Virus record (IMG/VR): IMGVR_UViG_3300049216_000568
Location: 1 to 39,733 of that record
DNA length: 39,733 nucleotides
DNA from: a virus
Strand: one strand, 5' to 3'
Below, one piece after another: positions 11,292 through 39,082 of the stretch (its first letter is position 1; every line of letters starts with the position of its first letter). The notes under the pieces were generated by a model that worked only from the letters and a program-made list of their open reading frames with translations, did not search any database and was not told the origin of the DNA. The position numbers and the translations under genes were made by a program.

Positions 11292-12577
11292 AGCTTCATA
11301 ATGAAGCAGAGGGCGACATAAGGCGGGACGGTTGCCACGGTCACTGAGTGGATGTGGTCGCCGTCTTCGCTGATGCCGTGAGTGTGAGCCACCCCGCCGC
11401 CAGTGCTGGACGAAACACCGTTATCGGGCGGGGAAGTCGTCTCGAACTGGTTGATGGTGTCGGACGAGCCGCCGCCGCCGAAGCCGCCATTGCCACGAGC
11501 CAGATAGCTCCCCGGCGAAGGGGCGCCCGTGCTGTAGGGAGCTTCCGTTGTGCTGATCACATTGTGAGTGTGCGGAGCCAGTTCATCGACAGTAAGGGCG
11601 TGGCCTGAAGTCGCGCCGGTGTGTGCGTGGCCACCCGCAGTGTTGGTAGTGCCCGTGCTTGTCGCCGAACCACCAGTCAGAAGAGGGTTCACCGAACCGC
11701 CAGCACCATAGATGAACTTGTCGCGAAGGTCGGGGGTGCCGTTGGTGCCGTCGCAAAGGTGCCAAGCAGTCGGGATGTTCGAGACAACCCCGCTCCACAT
11801 GATGATACCGCCCGAAGGCGTGCCGCCGGTAGTCGTTGAGGACAGGTCCGCCAGCGTGGCGTAGTTGGCGAGATCGGTGGTCAGTTCAGCCTGTGTGACG
11901 AAGCTTGCCACCTGTTCTTGCGTCACGAATGATCCGAACTTGTCCGGGCCAAAGGGAGCGCCGTCCACCTTGGTAATCATGCCGCTGGTGATGGCCGTCG
12001 CCGTGTTCGGGATCGTGACCAGCCACAGTTGGGTGTAGCCGGGCGATGCAGCCGGAGGGCCAGCCGTGCCCGTGGGCGCCGGAGCGCCGGGAGTGGCTTG
12101 CAGGGAGACGGTTTGCTTGCGGGTTGTGTTCTGGCCCGCGCCGTTGTTGCCCTGACCACTGAAGGGTTGGGAAGGGTCTGCGGCGTTGTAATATTCGGGC
12201 GCTGTAGCGTCCGTGTCGAACTCTTGGAAGGCCGCCTCGATAGCCCACACGGTGGACTGGCCAGAGCCCGAAGGGGCGGTCAGCGTGAGCGTGGTGGAGG
12301 TGGACTTGATGCCGATCTTTTGGATGGCATCGGTTTGTGCGGAGATCGCGCCGAAGTTCGTGTCGTCAATGGCGCGATAGGAAGTGATCGAACCGGGAGC
12401 GACAGAAACGCTCATGCTCACCGGGTTGGTGGGCACACAGTTTAAACCACCTACGACTGTGGACTGGCCAAAGACGGACTGAAGGACAGCACCATCGTTG
12501 ACCATCGCCGCGACTTGAGCACGAAGGAAATCTGTGTCGAGCGCAATCTCGTCCGGGTAAACAATAGCACGATCCAA
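11288..12577 (-). CDS. Tail fibre with tail-collar domain
   Basis: A 429-aa tail fibre or collar protein. The N-terminal 200 residues resemble phage fibre attachment regions (MDRAIVYPDEIALDTDFLRAQ). A phage tail-collar domain follows (GGIIMWSG ... AWHLCDGTNGTPDLRDKFIYGAG, about 250-295). The C-terminus carries His-x-His pairs (GGHAHTG, PHTHN, HTHG, DHIHS), like metal-binding fibre tips such as T4 gp37. The predicted start is TTG (12577). A late motif CTAAATA lies 32 nt upstream. A GTTTAAAC at 12440 is read as Leu-Asn. It is likely a receptor-binding or short fibre. Confidence 0.8.
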   Translation of the reverse strand: MDRAIVYPDEIALDTDFLRAQVAAMVNDGAVLQSVFGQSTVVGGLNCVPTNPVSMSVSVAPGSITSYRAIDDTNFGAISAQTDAIQKIGIKSTSTTLTLTAPSGSGQSTVWAIEAAFQEFDTDATAPEYYNAADPSQPFSGQGNNGAGQNTTRKQTVSLQATPGAPAPTGTAGPPAASPGYTQLWLVTIPNTATAITSGMITKVDGAPFGPDKFGSFVTQEQVASFVTQAELTTDLANYATLADLSSTTTGGTPSGGIIMWSGVVSNIPTAWHLCDGTNGTPDLRDKFIYGAGGSVNPLLTGGSATSTGTTNTAGGHAHTGATSGHALTVDELAPHTHNVISTTEAPYSTGAPSPGSYLARGNGGFGGGGSSDTINQFETTSPPDNGVSSSTGGGVAHTHGISEDGDHIHSVTVATVPPYVALCFIMKL

Positions 12578-12609
12578 AGCAGAGTCACTTTCGCTGAAGG
12601 CTTAGCCCT

Positions 12610-12616
12610 TATTTAG
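12610..12616 (-). promoter_or_regulatory. T4-late-type promoter motif CTAAATA
   Basis: CTAAATA in the context CTCGCTAAATAAGG, between the lectin-like gene at 12646 and the TTG start of the collar fibre at 12577. Confidence 0.55.
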
Positions 12617-12645
12617 CGAGGTGCTGCTCTGAAGCCGCTGCTACC

Positions 12646-20513: not shown

Positions 20514-22535
20514 TTATCCCATGTGCGGAACAGCCGAAGGCGTGAAGCCCTGACGGTTGGTGTGGACATTGCCGCCAGTCTGCGGACGGTTGGCGGCCTT
20601 GACGATTGTCTTCACCGTCTCCTTGGCGACGGTTTTGCCGTCAATCTTGGACTCGTGGTTCACCGTCACATGCACCGTGCTCGAAGGAGGAATGGGCGCC
20701 GCAGCCGGGTGGTCACCCTGACCCAAGTGCGTGATGCCGTTCCAGATTTGCGACGGAAGCTTGTGAAGCTCGTCAGAGATCGCAGAGCCGATCTTGGAGA
20801 AGGCATCGGGGATCGCGGTCTTCACCTTGTCCCACAGCCCGACCACGCCGGTCCCGATCCAACCAGCCAGCTTGGTGATGCCGCCCCAGATGTCGCGCCA
20901 CTTCAGGAGAAGGACATCGAAAACCACTACGGCGGCGGCCACACCGGCAACTATGGCCAATGGGAGGCCAACAAAGGCGGCGACGGCAAGAACCGCCGCT
21001 CCCCCGACTATAACTCCGAATGCTGTCAGGCCAGCGGCAACCTGCATCAAGACAATACCGATGGTTCGTCCAATTAGCGGATGTGCGCGGAAGAATGAGC
21101 CAACATTGTCGAGAGCGCCTGTCAGCCACTTCAGGGCAGGAATGATGACCGGCACAGCGTTTACCGCCAGCGAAGTGATCATGTTGTGCCAAGCCACCTT
21201 GAGGTTATCCATGTTCACCTTGGCAGATTTGTCCTGTGCGTCCTGATACGGGTCTTTCTTATCCGCCGCGTCCACATTGGCGCGCTCTTTCTTGATCACC
21301 GCCATGTTGCGAATGATCTCGGCAATGACAGCCGAAGCGTTGCGGTTGAACTTAGCGTGCTGGACCCAAGAGATTTCAGAGTCGGTGTCGGTGATGCCCT
21401 TGGCTGCGAGCTTGGGAAGAAGGACATTCTTCACCCACGACACAGGGTCGCTCTTCAGTTGGGACTCGCCGGAGATCGCGCCGTCCTCGAACTTGAACTG
21501 CTTTGGGAAGTCTCCTGCACCACCCCCAGAACGCCGGTGGCGGCCATGGGCGACCCCTGAGGAGTAGTCGTCGCCGAAGGCTGCGGAACCTCTGTAGCGG
21601 CCTCCTGCGGAGCCGTGGCCGATGCCTGTGGCGATGCCGTGGACCTTGGACATGTCGAGCAAGCCCATGTCACGGAGTGAGGTCGCGGTGACGCGGTTCA
21701 ACTGGCCAGAGATGAGGCCCATGTTGAGTGTAGCAAGCTGTGTGCCGGTCACGCCGCCGCCTTGGGCGCCGATCAGACCGACCATGTTCTTGAAGCCCTC
21801 TTCGGAGAGGTTGCCAGCCGCTGTCTTACCTGTGCTGGCGAACTGACGAAGCTGTTCACCATCCACTCGGCCACGGGTGGCGAACTCGATGGCGCGGTTC
21901 AGGTTCTGACGCGCCAAGAACCCGTGAGCGTCAAACTCGTTGTCGCCGTTGGCATCCTTTAGGAAGTTGCCGCGTGCGTCCTTCTTGTAGGACACGCCCA
22001 TCATTTCGATGGCGCGGTTGCCTTCGTGAAGATCGTTCTCCGCGTCTTCGGTAGAACCGCCACGCAGCACCTTCAGGCTGATGATGTTCCGCATGGTGTC
22101 TTCCAACACCGTGCGCTTGTCAGAGCCCTTTTCATAAATGTGCTCGAACGAGCCGAACAGTGCGCGAAGGTCACCGATGGCCTTGAGATTATCTGAGACA
22201 AGCGTCCCCTGAACGGACTTGGTCACCATCCACGCTTGCTGTGTCGCCTTGGCGACATCGAGCGGCGAGCTACCACCGCCAGCCAGCGTGATTTGCTGGC
22301 GGATCAACTCATCCTGTGCGTGGACCAGACCGTCGAGCGCCTTGAGCGCAATGCCAGCGCCCGCAAATGCGCCAGCCGCCACGCCGACCTTACCAAGGGC
22401 GGTCAGCTTGCCTTGAGTATCGAGGATTTTGACATTGAGCCCGTTGAGAGACTTCATCAGGCCGTTGATAACGCCTACAGCGTTGCCACCAGCGGTGATG
22501 TCCACCAAAATCTTGAATACTTTAGAACCAGCCAT
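20514..22535 (-). CDS. Tail tape measure protein
   Basis: A 673-aa protein: an N-terminal helical region (VGVINGLMKSLNGLNVKIL, KVGVAAGAFAGAGIALKALDGL), a Gly/Ser-rich basic region (HGSAGGRYRGSAAFGDDYS), then strongly hydrophobic segments (about 495-575, IGIVLMQVAAGLTAFGVIVGGAAVLAVAAFVGLPLAIVAG) typical of tape measures that insert into the host membrane. At about 0.15 nm per residue it predicts a tail of roughly 100 nm. It lies after the frameshifted chaperone and one small gene, as in other contractile-tail phages. Confidence 0.85.
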   Translation of the reverse strand: MAGSKVFKILVDITAGGNAVGVINGLMKSLNGLNVKILDTQGKLTALGKVGVAAGAFAGAGIALKALDGLVHAQDELIRQQITLAGGGSSPLDVAKATQQAWMVTKSVQGTLVSDNLKAIGDLRALFGSFEHIYEKGSDKRTVLEDTMRNIISLKVLRGGSTEDAENDLHEGNRAIEMMGVSYKKDARGNFLKDANGDNEFDAHGFLARQNLNRAIEFATRGRVDGEQLRQFASTGKTAAGNLSEEGFKNMVGLIGAQGGGVTGTQLATLNMGLISGQLNRVTATSLRDMGLLDMSKVHGIATGIGHGSAGGRYRGSAAFGDDYSSGVAHGRHRRSGGGAGDFPKQFKFEDGAISGESQLKSDPVSWVKNVLLPKLAAKGITDTDSEISWVQHAKFNRNASAVIAEIIRNMAVIKKERANVDAADKKDPYQDAQDKSAKVNMDNLKVAWHNMITSLAVNAVPVIIPALKWLTGALDNVGSFFRAHPLIGRTIGIVLMQVAAGLTAFGVIVGGAAVLAVAAFVGLPLAIVAGVAAAVVVFDVLLLKWRDIWGGITKLAGWIGTGVVGLWDKVKTAIPDAFSKIGSAISDELHKLPSQIWNGITHLGQGDHPAAAPIPPSSTVHVTVNHESKIDGKTVAKETVKTIVKAANRPQTGGNVHTNRQGFTPSAVPHMG

Positions 22536-22538
22536 GGC

Positions 22539-22982
22539 TTAACCCCCAAACAGTTTAAACAGGTGGTCGCCAATAATGTCCGCCACTTCGTCCGCAGTGT
22601 TGAACGCAGCGCTGGCCAAGACCGGGCGCGGCGGAATCTTTGAAGTGCCAAGCTCTTGATAGAGCATCACCTCATCTTCGGACCCCACATAGGCGTGGTG
22701 CCCGTCAACCTCGATGTCGATGCTATCCCGAAGCTTGCCGTCACGGAGCAAGGGCTCGTTCGGGGCATACCCAAGCTTGGCGCGGGTGTCCTGTGTGGCC
22801 TCTGCCAACTGTGGCCAAGCCGGGTTCGGACCCGCTTGGTCCTGATAGTGCCCGAAGTAGCTCTTCGCTTCCTTCTGGACATGCTTCGCAGCCAAGGTAA
22901 GGACTTCTTTACGGCCTTCCTCTTCGCTTGCAACAACGGTCGCCAGCACTGCAAGTAATTCGGCGATACCGTTAGAAGCCAT
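22539..22982 (-). CDS. HK97-gp10/virion morphogenesis-like tail protein
   Basis: A 147-aa protein with a helical N-terminus (EEEGRKEVLTLAAKHVQKEAKSYFG) and the pattern PLLRDGKLRDSIDIEVDGHHAYVGSEDEVMLYQELGTSKIPPRPVLASAAF, typical of HK97-gp10 or P2 gpS-type tail completion proteins. Its ATG shares an A with the stop of the -1 frame of the chaperone. It lies between chaperone and tape measure, an unusual place for this family. A GTTTAAAC at 22553 is read as Phe-Lys. Confidence 0.65.
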   Translation of the reverse strand: MASNGIAELLAVLATVVASEEEGRKEVLTLAAKHVQKEAKSYFGHYQDQAGPNPAWPQLAEATQDTRAKLGYAPNEPLLRDGKLRDSIDIEVDGHHAYVGSEDEVMLYQELGTSKIPPRPVLASAAFNTADEVADIIGDHLFKLFGG

Positions 22983-23544
22983 CAGGACTTGTCCTTAAAT
23001 CTCATCGTCTCAAAGTTAAACTCTCGGTCATCCACTACTTCGGAGAACAACAGAAACCACATCATTCGCTGTGTTTGCGTCATCTTCCTTGCTTCTTCCC
23101 ACGGGCACCCCTTCGAGACTATGTAAGCAAAGGCTCGAAAGTCGGGGTGCCTTACGAGTTTTTTAGTGCCCCAAGGCCCTCCTCAGACTCGGCAGTCTTC
23201 GCCGTCTGAAGATGGATCAAGTGTGTGCGGAGAGCCTGATAACCGGTCGTTCCGACGCGACGGATCGCGGAGCGGATGTGTGTCAGGTTGGCAGGGAACG
23301 GGTAGGGATTGCCGTCGATCTCGCGCACGCACGAGCAAATCATGGCCATCTCCATGTAGCTGCCGTTGTTGGTGGCTTCAGAGCCAGCCGCCAACATCAG
23401 GTCGCCAGTCTCAAGCAAGTCGCACTCGCGCCAGACATAAGTCCGACCGTCATCATCAGTGATCGTGAAGGACAGGTCGGGGGTCGGAGCCTTGACGGCT
23501 TTGGCGGCGGGCGCTTTGCGCTTCGTATCAGTAAGTTCGGGCAT
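22982..23544 (-). CDS. Tail assembly chaperone, long frameshift product
   Basis: A fusion of about 187 aa made by -1 ribosomal frameshifting. The 0 frame (130 aa) contains SFTITDDDGRTYVWRECDLLETGDLMLAAG. At A AAA AAC (23164-23158) a -1 slip continues into an open frame reading KLVRHPDFRAFAYIVSKG, then CPWEEARKMTQTQRMMWF and the end RFKDKS, stopping at 22982-22984. The -1 part has no start of its own and carries a typical chaperone C-terminal pattern. Both G-like and GT-like proteins coat the tape measure during tail assembly. Confidence 0.75.
23152..23544 (-). CDS. Tail assembly chaperone, short product
   Basis: The unshifted product, 130 aa, stopping at TAA 23152-23154 just after the slippery site. 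It binds the tape measure before tube polymerisation in related phages. Its leader comes from a late promoter in the loop of an upstream terminator, and AAAGGA precedes the ATG. Confidence 0.8.
   Translation of the reverse strand: MPELTDTKRKAPAAKAVKAPTPDLSFTITDDDGRTYVWRECDLLETGDLMLAAGSEATNNGSYMEMAMICSCVREIDGNPYPFPANLTHIRSAIRRVGTTGYQALRTHLIHLQTAKTAESEEGLGALKNS
23158..23164 (-). promoter_or_regulatory. -1 frameshift slippery heptamer AAAAAAC
   Basis: A perfect X-XXY-YYZ site: in the 0 frame the codons are CTA AAA AAC, followed two codons later by the stop. It permits a -1 slip into the T-like frame. Confidence 0.75.
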
Positions 23545-23568
23545 GGAATCCTTTGGTGGAAATAAAAA

Positions 23569-23628
23569 GGGCGCGGAGTGCGGCCCTAACAGCCATATTT
23601 AGCCGTCTGGACCTCTCACTCCGCGCCC
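23569..23628 (-). terminator. Terminator whose loop contains a late promoter
   Basis: GGGCGCGGAGTG (23569-23580) and CACTCCGCGCCC (23617-23628) form a perfect 12-bp stem. On the - strand TTTTTATTT follows. The 36-nt loop contains CTAAATA at 23602-23596. RNA arriving from the tube gene can form the terminator; RNA started in the loop lacks the 5' arm and cannot. Confidence 0.7.
23596..23602 (-). promoter_or_regulatory. T4-late-type promoter motif CTAAATA (chaperone)
   Basis: In the context ACGGCTAAATATGG, 51 nt before the chaperone ATG at 23544 and inside the terminator loop. A perfect GTCGTTTAAACGAC dyad lies about 50 bp upstream (23651-23664). Confidence 0.6.
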
Positions 23629-23675
23629 AACTCCCACCAAGGAGAGTAGCGTCGTTTAAACGACTACTTCACTAA

Positions 23676-24119
23676 TTAAACCACGAATCTTTGGGTTGCC
23701 TTAAAACTGACTTTTAGCTTGACATCCTTGTCAGCCGCCCAATCACCGCTGTCGTCATACTTGAAAGCACAGTTGGTGAACTTGAGCATGGTTTGAGTGC
23801 CATCCTTCTCGGACACATAAGCATAGACGGTGCCGTTGTTGTATTTGCCGAGTTGAATCCAGTTGGACTCAATGGTGCCGAACATGCGGTCGATGTTGGC
23901 GTCCTTACGAGAAAGCTCGATGGTGCCATCCCAACCCTTGGGAAGTTCGGCGTGGATCGTGTTGCCGTCGAGACGGTCAACAGTAATCGAGGCGTAAACC
24001 GCCTTGCCCGTGAACATCAGGATGTTCGAGATGTCAACACTCGTGCCGTCAGGAGCAACCCACTTGAGTTGAATGTCGCGGCCAGTATTGAAGGTGAATT
24101 GGTCTTGCGTGATCGACAT
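23676..24119 (-). CDS. Tail tube protein
   Basis: A 147-aa protein placed directly after the sheath gene. Its beta-rich sequence and length fit the contractile-tail tube family: TFNTGRDIQLKWVAPDGTSVDISNILMF, IESNWIQLGKYNNGTVYAYVSEKDGTQ, VKLKVSFKATQRFVV. It forms the inner tube around the tape measure. Transcription likely ends in the terminator at 23569-23628. Confidence 0.75.
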   Translation of the reverse strand: MSITQDQFTFNTGRDIQLKWVAPDGTSVDISNILMFTGKAVYASITVDRLDGNTIHAELPKGWDGTIELSRKDANIDRMFGTIESNWIQLGKYNNGTVYAYVSEKDGTQTMLKFTNCAFKYDDSGDWAADKDVKLKVSFKATQRFVV

Positions 24120-24136: not shown

Positions 24137-25645
24137 TTATTGAGCGTTTTGGGCGTTGATCGTGACACCGGCGCCGCCTTCAACTCCGATTACGAAGTCG
24201 CGGACGATGCCTTGGAAGCGGCACTGAACAGCGGCGGTCAGGAGACCAAGCGAGGTCTGCGACTGCGGGTTGTTGAACTTGTCGCACTGCACCGTGTAGG
24301 GCACGGAGCCGTCCTCTTGGACCGCCAGCACGCCTTCGGAGAGAAGGTTGCCCAGAGCGTTGTCCAGCGTGGTCGTGACATCGAGGAAGAGACCGTTGTT
24401 GATCTTTTCGCCGACATACTGGCCCATGCCGCTGTTGAAGGTGGACAGAAGCAAGTTCTCCATCCGGGTGTAGGTTTCGTCCTGAACACCAGCTTCCGAA
24501 GAAGCGTTGATGCCGAGACGGACACCCCAAATGGCACCGCGCGGTTGCGGGTTGGTCAGCACATCAATGCCAGCGAGACCAAGCTCAAGAAGCTCTGCGT
24601 CGCTGTAGGTGCCAACCGTGCCGGAGCCGGGGGCGCCGACGCGCTGCGAGCCAACCACGCCGAAGATCGGCTTGTTGAGCGAGGAATCAGAAGCCGTCAG
24701 GTTCTGCATACGACCAGCGACGAAGCCTTGCGGGCTGATCATGCGCGTGCCGTTGGACGGGTCGTTGAAGTAGACCCAATCGCCCAACATGATCTTGATG
24801 TTGGTGTCGTCTGCACCAGCCGTTTGCTTGGCAGTGATCGCGTCAGAAATCGCCTGACCAGCCGGGCCAACTGCGATCATCAGAACATTGTTCGCCTCGC
24901 CGTAGGCGATTTGCGTGGTGTAGGTGGTGGAGTCGTCGCAATCGCACAGGACACCGATGGAAGCCTGCGTGTTTTGAGCCGCCCACATGCCCGTGCGGGT
25001 CGAAGAGTCGCCCACAAGGTCCGTGCTCACAACGCCAGCGCCGTCCGTGCCACCAACGAGGGTGACGGAGAAGCCAGCCGCCAGAGCGGTTGCAGTCGGG
25101 TCACCAGAGGTGACAACGATGAGATTAGAAGGACGGGCCGCGACGGCTGCGGCGAAATCGGCGCCGAAGGTGGCAATCGCAATATTGTCATAGGCTTCAA
25201 TGGTCGTGCCCATGGTGACCGTGACGCGGAAGGTTGCCGCTTTGGAGCCGGTGCCCACCGCGATCACGATGTTGTTGCCAGCCGTCCCGCTGTATTTCGC
25301 CGTTGCGGTGAAGACGGTCTTCGGAGTGCCGGAGCCGGTCGTCACAGCCTTGGTGGCTGCGGTGTCGGTTCCGTCCGTGACGCGGATGCAGATGAAGTCG
25401 TTGGCGCCCTGAAGGACCGCTGCGGCGACATGGGAGCCCATGTCGAACTTGCGGGCTTGGATCGCACCAAAGACCTTGGAGTAGGAGGTCATGTCGCTGA
25501 CAGCGACGGGAGCGTTGACCGGGCCGAACGCAGCCGTCCCGACATAGAACGCGATGTTGGTCGGCGCTTCATTGAGCGTCACGACTGACGGCGAAACCTT
25601 CACTACATTGAGGGAAGGCACGATGGTCGGGGTGTTAACGGCCAT
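24137..25645 (-). CDS. Tail sheath protein
   Basis: A 502-aa sheath protein. The N-terminus has NEAPTNIAFYVGTAAFGPVNAPVAVSDMTSYSKVFG and VAAAVLQGANDFICIRVTDGT, typical of the family. The C-terminal third has the conserved sheath pattern GLAGIDVLTNPQPRGAIWGVRLGINA and ENLLLSTFNSGMGQYVG. It is followed by the tube gene with 17 nt between. It proves a contractile (myovirus) tail. Confidence 0.9.
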   Translation of the reverse strand: MAVNTPTIVPSLNVVKVSPSVVTLNEAPTNIAFYVGTAAFGPVNAPVAVSDMTSYSKVFGAIQARKFDMGSHVAAAVLQGANDFICIRVTDGTDTAATKAVTTGSGTPKTVFTATAKYSGTAGNNIVIAVGTGSKAATFRVTVTMGTTIEAYDNIAIATFGADFAAAVAARPSNLIVVTSGDPTATALAAGFSVTLVGGTDGAGVVSTDLVGDSSTRTGMWAAQNTQASIGVLCDCDDSTTYTTQIAYGEANNVLMIAVGPAGQAISDAITAKQTAGADDTNIKIMLGDWVYFNDPSNGTRMISPQGFVAGRMQNLTASDSSLNKPIFGVVGSQRVGAPGSGTVGTYSDAELLELGLAGIDVLTNPQPRGAIWGVRLGINASSEAGVQDETYTRMENLLLSTFNSGMGQYVGEKINNGLFLDVTTTLDNALGNLLSEGVLAVQEDGSVPYTVQCDKFNNPQSQTSLGLLTAAVQCRFQGIVRDFVIGVEGGAGVTINAQNAQ

Positions 25646-28301: not shown

Positions 28302-28325
28302 AAATCGTTTAAACGACTATCAGTC

Positions 28326-33404: not shown

Positions 33405-34277
33405 TTAAAGTTTCTTGGACATCGCCGCGCGTTGTGCCAGCATATCATCAGTCTGGCGGGTATAGGACGGCGTGGCTCCCGCCATGATCAGAAGGTCGTC
33501 TCTGATCTTCTGGCCCTTGTTCTCCGTCGCCAACACCCTTCTGAAGCAGTTGGTGATGGTCGCGGTGTAGAACGCGAAAGGGTTGTCCGACTTGGACTCG
33601 TCAAACTGAAGCCCGACCTGTGCCAGTTGCAGCAAAGATGAGGACTGCATCTCGTCATTGTAGGTGTAGCCACGCCAGTTGCCCCGGCGCCCATAGCGCT
33701 CCACCAAAAGCACGAACATCCGGCCCAACTTCTCCGTCATCCTGCCGTGATCCATGGAGAAATGGCCGTTGTCGAAGCCACCGATCCAATGCGAGCGCAA
33801 AACCTCCTGAACGCCCTCCGAGGTCAGGATGAAGTGCTTGTAGGGCGGGAAGGTCGTCCGGGTGTAGCTCTGATCGGTCAACCGGCTCTTGCGAACCCGG
33901 TCAGGGTCCAGCGGAATGTGCTCATAAGTCATAACCCGGACCACGATGGACTCCGGCTTGATGTCCTCAAGCGGAATATTGGGCTTCCCGCGAGGCTTTG
34001 ACTTCTTGATCCGCGCCTCTTCGATCAATTCAGGGGTGATCATCGCCGCCGCCGTCTGCGTGGCGAGCCAATCCTCCATCGAGCCCTTGAACCCATCCTC
34101 CACCGCCAGCTTGTAGTCCGCCTTGGTGTGCTTTGGGCTGATGATCAGGTCATATTCAGCGTGCCAAGGCTCAAGATATGAGTTAAAAGTGTTCTTGGAC
34201 TTCGTAAGCTCTTGCAACAATGAAGCATTGCTTAAGTATTTGGCCGGTTTTGGCTTGGGGACATAAGTGGAAGGCAT
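33405..34277 (-). CDS. T4 gp55-like late-transcription sigma factor, with a large insertion
   Basis: A 290-aa protein. The N-terminus (KPAKYLSNASLLQELTKSK, about 12-29) and the core (about 180-264: GRMFVLLVERYGRRGNWRGY, NDEMQSSSLLQLAQVGLQFD, NPFAFYTATITNCFRRVLAT) match the layout of T4 gp55, the sigma-70-family factor for late promoters: NNKELLQ at the N-terminus and GYTxxWKQEM ... FDETKYKNPHAY ... ACFNAF in the core. T4 gp55 is about 185 aa; here about 140 residues are inserted between the two parts. The insertion includes VRVMTYEHIPLDPDRVRKSRLTDQ and the YTRTTFP block shared with a nearby small protein. No clear clamp-binding tail is seen. The ATG at 34277 is preferred over a GTG just upstream. 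Confidence 0.75.
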   Translation of the reverse strand: MPSTYVPKPKPAKYLSNASLLQELTKSKNTFNSYLEPWHAEYDLIISPKHTKADYKLAVEDGFKGSMEDWLATQTAAAMITPELIEEARIKKSKPRGKPNIPLEDIKPESIVVRVMTYEHIPLDPDRVRKSRLTDQSYTRTTFPPYKHFILTSEGVQEVLRSHWIGGFDNGHFSMDHGRMTEKLGRMFVLLVERYGRRGNWRGYTYNDEMQSSSLLQLAQVGLQFDESKSDNPFAFYTATITNCFRRVLATENKGQKIRDDLLIMAGATPSYTRQTDDMLAQRAAMSKKL

Positions 34278-34285
34278 CACCTATA

Positions 34286-37219: not shown

Positions 37220-38682
37220 CGTTGGTTCAACGATCCACGACTCCATCGTGTCTTCACCCTGATCTTGTTCAGTTCGATCAACGATCCGAACGCCCTGCTT
37301 GAAGCATCCACTTGGTCATCGTGCTTCAAGTTGGGGAAGCCCTTCAGTTCGTCGCGGTATTCCTTGTTCCAAGCGCCTTCCACGAGCTTCACATTGCCAG
37401 CGCCCACCTGTGCCGCATACGGCTTGGCACGGTCGGTCTTTGAACCGCTTTCCGGGGAATGCTCGACAATGAAGCCAGCCAGCGCCAGTGACAGGTCTTT
37501 GGCTTGCCAGATGCCAGCCTGACCCGGATCGCGTGGGAAGGCTATGATGGTGCCAAGGCCATCGTTGTGCGCGGTGTTGATGACCAGTTGGCGAACTTCG
37601 GTCGGATCGCCTTTGAGCCTGATGACATCTTCCACGACAAACTCACCAGACGGCAGGCGAGCCATAAGCACGCCAACGGTGTAGTCGGAGCCGAACTTCT
37701 TGGTGGCTGCAAAGTCCCATGCACGCACACGCTTGATCGGCGTGGGGCACGCCGGGATGGGCTTGATGAGATCGGGTTTAAACAGGATGCCGCCAGCGGG
37801 GAGCGGGTTGGCCTGATAGAGGGCTTGGAAGTGCGCTTCTGAGCCTTTGCGCTTGTTGTCGATGAAGCTTTGGTCGTGATACTTCGGCCAAAGCAGGGTG
37901 CCACTATTGGCCTTGCGTCCCAAGCCATACGGGAACTCCGGTTCGTCGTAGTCGTGCTCCCACACCGCAGGCATGGACAGGAAGAACCATTCGTCTCCAC
38001 CGGGTTTGGCGGCTTCGTCTCTGATCTTTCCGAGAAGGTCTGACTGGTGCCATCGGGTGCCGATCACTACCATCCGACTGTCGGGGGTCATGCGGCCTTT
38101 CAGGTCCACATCGAACCAGTCCCAAGTCTTGTTCTGCATCAACTCCGAGTAAGCGTCGTCAATACCGCCTACAGCGTCGTCCACGACCGCAAGATCACAA
38201 CGGAAGCCTTGGATGGCTGTGCCGGTTGAGGCGGCAAGCAGGGATGATCCGTTGGAGCACGCCCACATCTCCTTGCTGTCGTTGACGGGTGCGTTGCCAA
38301 GCTCCCGCGAGTAGGCGCGCACCAGCGTTTGGATGTCGTTGCTGTGTCGCAGCGACAGGTTCTTGGACGAAGACGAGACGATGACATTTGTCTTCGGATA
38401 CTTGGACATGAACTGTGCGGGGAATATCTTCGCCGCGTAGGTGCTCTTGGCGCTACCGGGTGGGAACTCAAGCCCAAGGTTCTTGATCCTGCCTTCGGCA
38501 ACCTCGTTCAGCCAATAAAGGATGATCCTGTGGTGTGCCGCTGGCGTTGGGTCTTCATGTGGCTTGACGAAATCCTTGGAGACATTTTCGGCCCAATACT
38601 CAAGTTCATCGGACATTCGCTCCGTGTGGAGTAGTTCTTCAAGGAGGGCCTTCTTCTTACTCTGTTGATTGTTCAGGCTCAT
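37216..38682 (-). CDS. terL: Terminase large subunit
   Basis: A 488-aa packaging ATPase and nuclease. Walker A is FPPGSAKST (about residues 73-81). The Walker B region LAVVDDAVGG (about 164-173) has the catalytic acid. The RNase-H-like nuclease follows: AWDFAATKKFGSDYTVGVLMAR (about 340) and KHDDQVDASSRAF (about 460), holding the acidic metal ligands. The ATG at 38682 overlaps the small subunit gene by 26 nt and is preferred over a TTG upstream. A GTTTAAAC at 37776 is read as Phe-Lys. Confidence 0.9.
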   Translation of the reverse strand: MSLNNQQSKKKALLEELLHTERMSDELEYWAENVSKDFVKPHEDPTPAAHHRIILYWLNEVAEGRIKNLGLEFPPGSAKSTYAAKIFPAQFMSKYPKTNVIVSSSSKNLSLRHSNDIQTLVRAYSRELGNAPVNDSKEMWACSNGSSLLAASTGTAIQGFRCDLAVVDDAVGGIDDAYSELMQNKTWDWFDVDLKGRMTPDSRMVVIGTRWHQSDLLGKIRDEAAKPGGDEWFFLSMPAVWEHDYDEPEFPYGLGRKANSGTLLWPKYHDQSFIDNKRKGSEAHFQALYQANPLPAGGILFKPDLIKPIPACPTPIKRVRAWDFAATKKFGSDYTVGVLMARLPSGEFVVEDVIRLKGDPTEVRQLVINTAHNDGLGTIIAFPRDPGQAGIWQAKDLSLALAGFIVEHSPESGSKTDRAKPYAAQVGAGNVKLVEGAWNKEYRDELKGFPNLKHDDQVDASSRAFGSLIELNKIRVKTRWSRGSLNQR

Positions 38683-39031
38683 TCTTACTTCGCAAGTCCG
38701 CAAGTTGTGCGAGGATTTGCGCTTTCGTCAGGGTTTGGGGCTTCTCCACATCAGCGTTGGTCTGAACGATGTTCTGAAGGCGTGGGTGAATGAAGGACGC
38801 AGCCGCTTGAGCGTGCTTGGCCGCCATCTCAAGTCCAGCCTCAGTCCCTTTGGCGAGGTTGGCTTTCATGGCAAGTAGAAGGACATCCAATGGTGTCATG
38901 CTGTTGACATCGTCATTGAACAGCAAGGACAGCTTGTGTTGGTTTGCTTCCAACTGTGCGGCTGCGTCTTCTTTTTGCTTGCTCGATCCCGGTTTGCGGC
39001 CCGATCCGGGGCGATAGCCACCTCGTGCCAT
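38657..39031 (-). CDS. terS: Terminase small subunit
   Basis: A 124-aa protein: MARGGYRPGSGRKPGSSKQKEDAAAQLEANQHKLSLLFNDD, a DNA-binding-like basic Gly/Arg N-terminus seen in small terminases and related DUF5681 proteins, then helices MTPLDVLLLAMKANLAK and AAKHAQAAASFIHPRLQ. The ATG at 39031 is chosen over a GTG at 39046; GGAG lies 9 nt upstream. A GTTTAAAC site (39034-39041) sits between that ribosome binding site and the start codon. Confidence 0.8.
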   Translation of the reverse strand: MARGGYRPGSGRKPGSSKQKEDAAAQLEANQHKLSLLFNDDVNSMTPLDVLLLAMKANLAKGTEAGLEMAAKHAQAAASFIHPRLQNIVQTNADVEKPQTLTKAQILAQLADLRSKNEPEQSTE

Positions 39032-39033
39032 GT

Positions 39034-39082
39034 GTTTAAACTCCACTATGGTTGTCGAGCTATTTATGGGGAGAGTTTAAAC
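39034..39082 (-). promoter_or_regulatory. Terminase promoter CATAAATA bracketed by two GTTTAAAC sites
   Basis: A late-type -10 motif CATAAATA (39061-39068) lies between GTTTAAAC sites at 39034-39041 and 39075-39082, 41 bp centre to centre, similar to early promoter P2. The first site also covers the small terminase's translation initiation region. Confidence 0.65.

Follow-up and report, generated by a model that had tools for sequence, protein, structure and literature searches.

A late promoter motif at the apex of a predicted terminator hairpin between the tail tube and tail assembly chaperone genes of an uncultured phage

The window analysed here, i.e., the whole stretch of 39,733 nucleotides, is a 39.7-kb fragment of an uncultured phage, and its virus record (IMGVR_UViG_3300049216_000568) carries no completeness estimate. 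The GC content of the window is 59%, and the minus strand holds nearly all of the genes assigned. On this strand, the sheath gene is followed by the tube gene, a 131-bp gap, the chaperone gene, a gene for a tail-completion-like protein, and the tape measure gene. The genes referred to below are as follows:

33405–34280, minus strand: T4 gp55-type late sigma factor, 291 aa (phrog_12791, 3.6e-71; phrog_234, 3.5e-19)
24137–25645, minus strand: sheath gene
23676–24119, minus strand: tail tube gene, 147 aa, after the sheath gene (phrog_12993, 8e-27; predicted fold)
23152–23544, minus strand: tail assembly chaperone, first ORF, 130 aa (phrog_20383; −1 slip site at its end)
22982–23164, minus strand: −1 frameshift site A AAA AAC (23158–23164) and −1 frame extension of the chaperone (translation; homologous extension in relatives)
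22539–22982, minus strand: tail-completion-like protein
20514–22535, minus strand: tape measure

Neither the tube nor the chaperone was named by Pfam or NCBIfam; therefore, the former was named by its fold and the latter by its frameshift. The AlphaFold model of the tube protein (29 homologues, pLDDT 82) matches the contractile tail tubes of diffocin, PVC, AFP and phage Pa193 in the PDB. The A AAA AAC slip site lies just ahead of the chaperone stop codon, and both the site and the −1 extension are kept in about 30 relatives. An earlier sequence-only reading had placed a tube gene upstream and a tail chaperone downstream of the element described below, and the tail-tube fold and the conserved −1 frameshift site bear out both assignments. 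In its conserved A AAA AAC/G slip site and −1 extension, the downstream gene resembles the tail assembly chaperone pair of the lambda G/GT type, whereas it belongs here to a contractile-tail phage and is separated from the tube gene by a hairpin.

The 131-bp gap and its borders contain the following elements:

23645–23668, minus strand: further hairpin in the 3′UTR of the tube gene, around the palindrome TCGTTTAAACGA (fold)
23630–23643, minus strand: 5′ arm of the outer stem, TCCTTGGTGGGAGT, complementary to the chaperone Shine–Dalgarno region (fold, duplex energy)
23617–23628, minus strand: 5′ arm of the terminator stem, GGGCGCGGAGTG as read on the gene strand (inverted repeat and fold)
23582–23613, minus strand: paired interior of the hairpin, 5 bp and 8 bp, with an apical loop at 23596–23599 (fold)
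23596–23602, minus strand: late promoter core CTAAATA at the hairpin apex, predicted start at about 23590 (motif counts; spacing in T4 and Aeh1)
23569–23580, minus strand: 3′ arm of the terminator stem, CACTCCGCGCCC as read on the gene strand (inverted repeat and fold)
23560–23568, minus strand: terminator U-tract TTTTTATTT, adjoining the 3′ arm
23549–23563, minus strand: 3′ arm of the outer stem, with the chaperone Shine–Dalgarno sequence AAGGA at 23549–23553 (fold, duplex energy)

The inner arms, GGGCGCGGAGTG (23569–23580) and CACTCCGCGCCC (23617–23628), form a perfect 12-bp inverted repeat with 36 nt between them. Ten of the 12 bp are GC, and along the minus (gene) strand TTTTTATTT comes directly after the 3′ arm, so that a GC-rich stem and an immediate U-tract are found together on the transcribed strand. 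Because the U-tract adjoins the 3′ arm on the gene strand, the terminator is one-directional and correctly oriented; the plus-strand fold was set aside, as the U-tract is absent on that strand. The 36-nt spacing proposed by the sequence-only reading was retained, but the interior proved not to be an open loop: on the gene strand, 23609–23613 pair with 23582–23586 (5 bp) and 23600–23607 pair with 23588–23595 (8 bp), leaving a 4-nt apical loop. The whole RNA is a near-continuous 25-bp hairpin (12 + 5 + 8 bp) with a predicted energy of −45.8 kcal/mol, compared to a shuffle mean of −22.4 (z −7.9; 0 of 200 shuffles). Judged from the fold and the U-tract, this is a strong intrinsic terminator that follows the tube gene and faces the right way, and in this respect the perfect 12-bp stem with its T-run and the terminator proposed earlier were upheld.

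Other strong terminators were found after the major capsid gene (28301–28274) and before the large tail gene (10258–10227), with loops of 4 and 6 nt, and compared with them, the large interior of the hairpin in the tube–chaperone gap is unusual. Like other intrinsic terminators that follow major structural genes, including that of the capsid gene here, it combines a GC-rich stem with a U-tract behind a strongly expressed gene; it differs in its loop, the usual ones being 3–8 nt long and without a promoter. A search of Rfam gave no match. An origin of the hairpin from a repeat was rejected, as the window has no second exact copy of the arms and no more near matches than chance would give. The sequence TAGTCGTTTAAACGA lies shortly before the terminators in the 3′UTRs of both the tube gene (23654–23661) and the major capsid gene (28307–28314); a scan for it returned unrelated contigs only.

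The apex of the hairpin carries CTAAATA on the minus strand, as the sequence-only reading had noticed between the arms. The window has 21 copies of TAAATA on the minus (gene) strand and none on the plus strand, against about 0.6–0.7 expected per strand (~30-fold over expectation), and most of them lie just ahead of gene starts. These 21 sites include 10 of CTAAATA, all on the minus strand and against 0.5 expected in the window, and seven of ATAAATA. Late promoters of T4 have TATAAATA at −13 to −6, and the CTAAATA late promoters of the T4-like phage Aeh1 begin at −12 and are predicted at −12 to −6 (PMC1524935). Hence a −10 element resembling TATAAATA recurs upstream of late genes on the late strand of the window, and the gene at 33405–34280 encodes a gp55-type sigma that is ~40% identical to those of Phosso, Atu_ph07 and PA5oct. 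No genes for gp33 and gp45 were identified in the window, itself a genome fragment. Given a genuine late-promoter family and a late sigma of the matching kind encoded by the phage itself, the apex CTAAATA can be called a late promoter with near certainty, as had been proposed, and from the promoter spacing in T4 and Aeh1 its start is predicted near 23590, just beyond the apex. Leaderless mRNAs are predicted at three late promoters of the minus strand (17784, 20490 and 35712), with ATG exactly 6 nt after TAAATA.

The core motif is the same as in the Aeh1 late promoters (PMC1524935), whereas the virion genes here match small contractile-tailed phages and not T4. A test for membership in Straboviridae by T4-type virion genes was negative for the window; matches of 27–48% link its sheath, tube, capsid, portal and baseplate genes to small contractile-tailed phages, and the late sigma alone belongs to the T4/jumbo-phage type. 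The late sigma (33405–34280) and its promoters thus appear to drive a virion set (5596–31834) akin to that of small contractile-tailed phages, e.g., Komagataeibacter phiKX1. An assembly chimera of the sigma and virion genes is unlikely, because the late-promoter motif is present through both parts. The window would show T4-type late transcription running the virion gene set of a quite different type of phage.

RNA started at about 23590 would have a leader of ~46 nt that keeps the 3′ half of the hairpin, while the 5′ half is wholly absent; this agrees with, and extends, the suggestion that RNA started between the arms lacks the 5′ arm. The arrangement is that of T4 gene e, where the promoter lies within the hairpin and the late RNA is without the 5′ strand. 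In T4, the ribosome sites of e, soc, 49 and I-TevI are concealed in long transcripts; those from the gene e late promoters, without the 5′ strand, are well translated (PMC3014915). Pairing across the predicted start was −33 kcal/mol at the apex promoter, the strongest of the 21 promoter sites and a value reached at 0.03% of window positions. As a positive control, the same pairing energy was calculated for 31 TATAAATA sites of T4. The two gene e promoters ranked first (−14.9 and −14.2), followed by the sites 45638 and 138946, which adjoin the intron endonuclease genes I-TevII and I-TevIII; thus, −33 in the phage described here compares with −14.9 at the best T4 site. None of the T4 sites displayed has a terminator U-tract of this kind.

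Two other late promoters of the window lie between complementary arms. The promoter at 12610–12616 (minus strand) lies inside a long hairpin at about 12555–12640 that has no U-tract; the downstream gene, which is tail fibre-like, has its TTG start covered by the 3′ arm, and the pairing energy across the predicted start of this promoter is −19.6 kcal/mol (0.4% of positions). The ATAAATA promoter at 39061–39067 (minus strand) lies between the arms GTTTAAACTC (39075–39082) and GAGTTTAAAC (39034–39041), the latter adjoining the start of the gene at 38657–39046, and the GTTTAAACTC/GAGTTTAAAC stem was not favoured by RNA folding.

Outside the inner hairpin, TCCTTGGTGGGAGT is complementary to the region of the chaperone Shine–Dalgarno sequence, and the two form an outer stem of 14 bp with one bulge (duplex energy −18.5 kcal/mol, equalled by 4 of 5000 shuffles). 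Elsewhere on the minus strand of the phage, no stretch gave so strong a duplex. As in the gene e type of control, the Shine–Dalgarno sequence is predicted to be paired only in the long RNA, its AAGGA with a UCCUU in the outer arm. Unpairing it is predicted to cost ~5.2 kcal/mol in the long RNA and ~2.7 in the late RNA, a modest difference. The outer stem can form only in RNA that is already past the terminator. The earlier reading, in which the element acted on transcription only, overlooked this stem, which would add a second, translational layer on the read-through RNA.

The likeness to T4 e, soc, 49 and I-TevI (PMC3014915) therefore comprises a gp55-type late promoter inside a hairpin, an upstream long RNA that would sequester the Shine–Dalgarno sequence, and a late RNA in which it would be free. 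In contrast, the T4 hairpin affects translation only, whereas the inner hairpin and U-tract should here terminate transcription, and the upstream gene is a late structural gene here and part of an early or middle unit in T4. No precedent for a start within a hairpin combined with a terminator was found, the T4 cases included.

From the stem, U-tract, motif, outer complementarity and gene order, which are directly visible in the sequence, we infer termination, initiation, read-through and a translational effect as follows. Polymerase coming from the tube gene would make the full hairpin and stop at the U-tract. Later in infection, polymerase with the gp55-type sigma would start at the apex CTAAATA, at about 23590; since only the 3′ half of the hairpin is present in this RNA, it would escape full termination and serve the chaperone, perhaps along with the genes that follow. 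Any upstream RNA leaking through would fold the 14-bp outer stem and, because this covers the chaperone Shine–Dalgarno sequence, would be poorly translated. The output of the chaperone would then be set mainly by its own promoter, apart from that of the strongly expressed tube. The element is probably a nested terminator and late promoter that insulates the chaperone from the tube. A more specific reading, which we put forward tentatively, is a two-layer switch within one imperfect palindrome of ~95 nt (23549–23643), where the inner hairpin terminates, the outer stem hides the ribosome site, and the apex promoter yields the only RNA free of both. If so, every chaperone transcript would depend on the late sigma, whatever the upstream traffic. 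Such an element would fuse an intrinsic terminator and a T4-type late-promoter hairpin into a compact insulator that allows two late-operon neighbours to be made at different levels, and as a small part it would be of use in genetic circuits. Overall, the features reported by the sequence-only reading were confirmed with the corrections given above, and its interpretation is partly supported, as a single case.

The main doubt concerns full read-through, because RNA started at the apex can itself fold into a 7-bp hairpin (5-nt loop; −9.9 kcal/mol; z −2.2) that immediately precedes the same U-tract and is present for every start from 23588 to 23595. Read-through of this RNA may be partial, and if the small hairpin is effective, early termination would reduce the chaperone still more. 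Taken to its end, this describes a leaky promoter–terminator, or attenuator, in which a fraction of the apex-started RNA stops ~25–30 nt after its start, and the chaperone is kept low by premature termination together with insulation. We regard this as rather unlikely: the bulged hairpin is less stable than the main stem, and any RNA keeping the GC-rich 3′ arm may fold similarly (29 of 1000 shuffles were as good). An ordinary terminator followed by a promoter, the two working independently and overlapping merely since the 131-bp gap is short, would give the nesting no regulatory role. Once both signals must fit the gap, the motif would fall in the loop roughly one time in four by our estimate, so the overlap by itself is only mildly improbable; moreover, the same phage has a terminator (10258–10227) and a late promoter (10212) in tandem and not nested, and a census that covered 50 kb of T4 together with 80 late-sigma and 46 sheath loci turned up no GC-rich nested terminator–promoter, only weak hits at about the control-motif rate or below. 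A bare overlap, however, needs neither the paired loop interior with the promoter at its very apex nor the separate outer stem on the Shine–Dalgarno sequence, and this explanation is considered unlikely.

The length of the stem (~25 bp, or 39 with the outer stem) exceeds the needs of termination, and T7 places promoters near RNase III hairpins. Both points would suit a hairpin that is mainly a 3′-end stabiliser or RNase III site of the tube mRNA, or a cruciform DNA element, rather than a terminator. The clean U-tract right after the stem, on the gene strand only, and the lack of further exact copies of the arms make this highly improbable. Least credible is a chance occurrence of CTAAATA in the loop: the flanks of the motif do resemble those of the other sites weakly (19% of random positions score as high), but the motif occurs at about 30 times its expected frequency and on one strand only, and the chaperone gene would otherwise be promoterless behind a strong terminator.

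In the collections searched, neither the hairpin DNA nor the capsid, tube and chaperone proteins led to a near relative; covariation support is therefore absent for both the hairpin and the outer stem. Distant structural relatives are 26–39% identical in the tube and 38–49% in the sheath, and the sheath relatives are without this promoter family; no matching sheath or tube was found in the late-sigma relatives searched. In about 12 relatives, the tube and chaperone genes are separated by a gap of at least 40 bp, and three of these (L030, L033 and L044) have a plain, unrelated terminator there, an observation slightly in favour of a general requirement to keep the tube and chaperone genes apart.

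Among the 8-mers of the window, the palindrome GTTTAAAC is over-represented far more than any other (26 occurrences in 39.7 kb, ~0.8 expected); neither the sheath relatives nor the contig of a close late-sigma relative contain it. The palindrome is found in coding and non-coding DNA, e.g., at 897, 4973, 10222, 23661, 28314 and 39556, and it accounts for 26 of the 28 TTTAAA hexamers.
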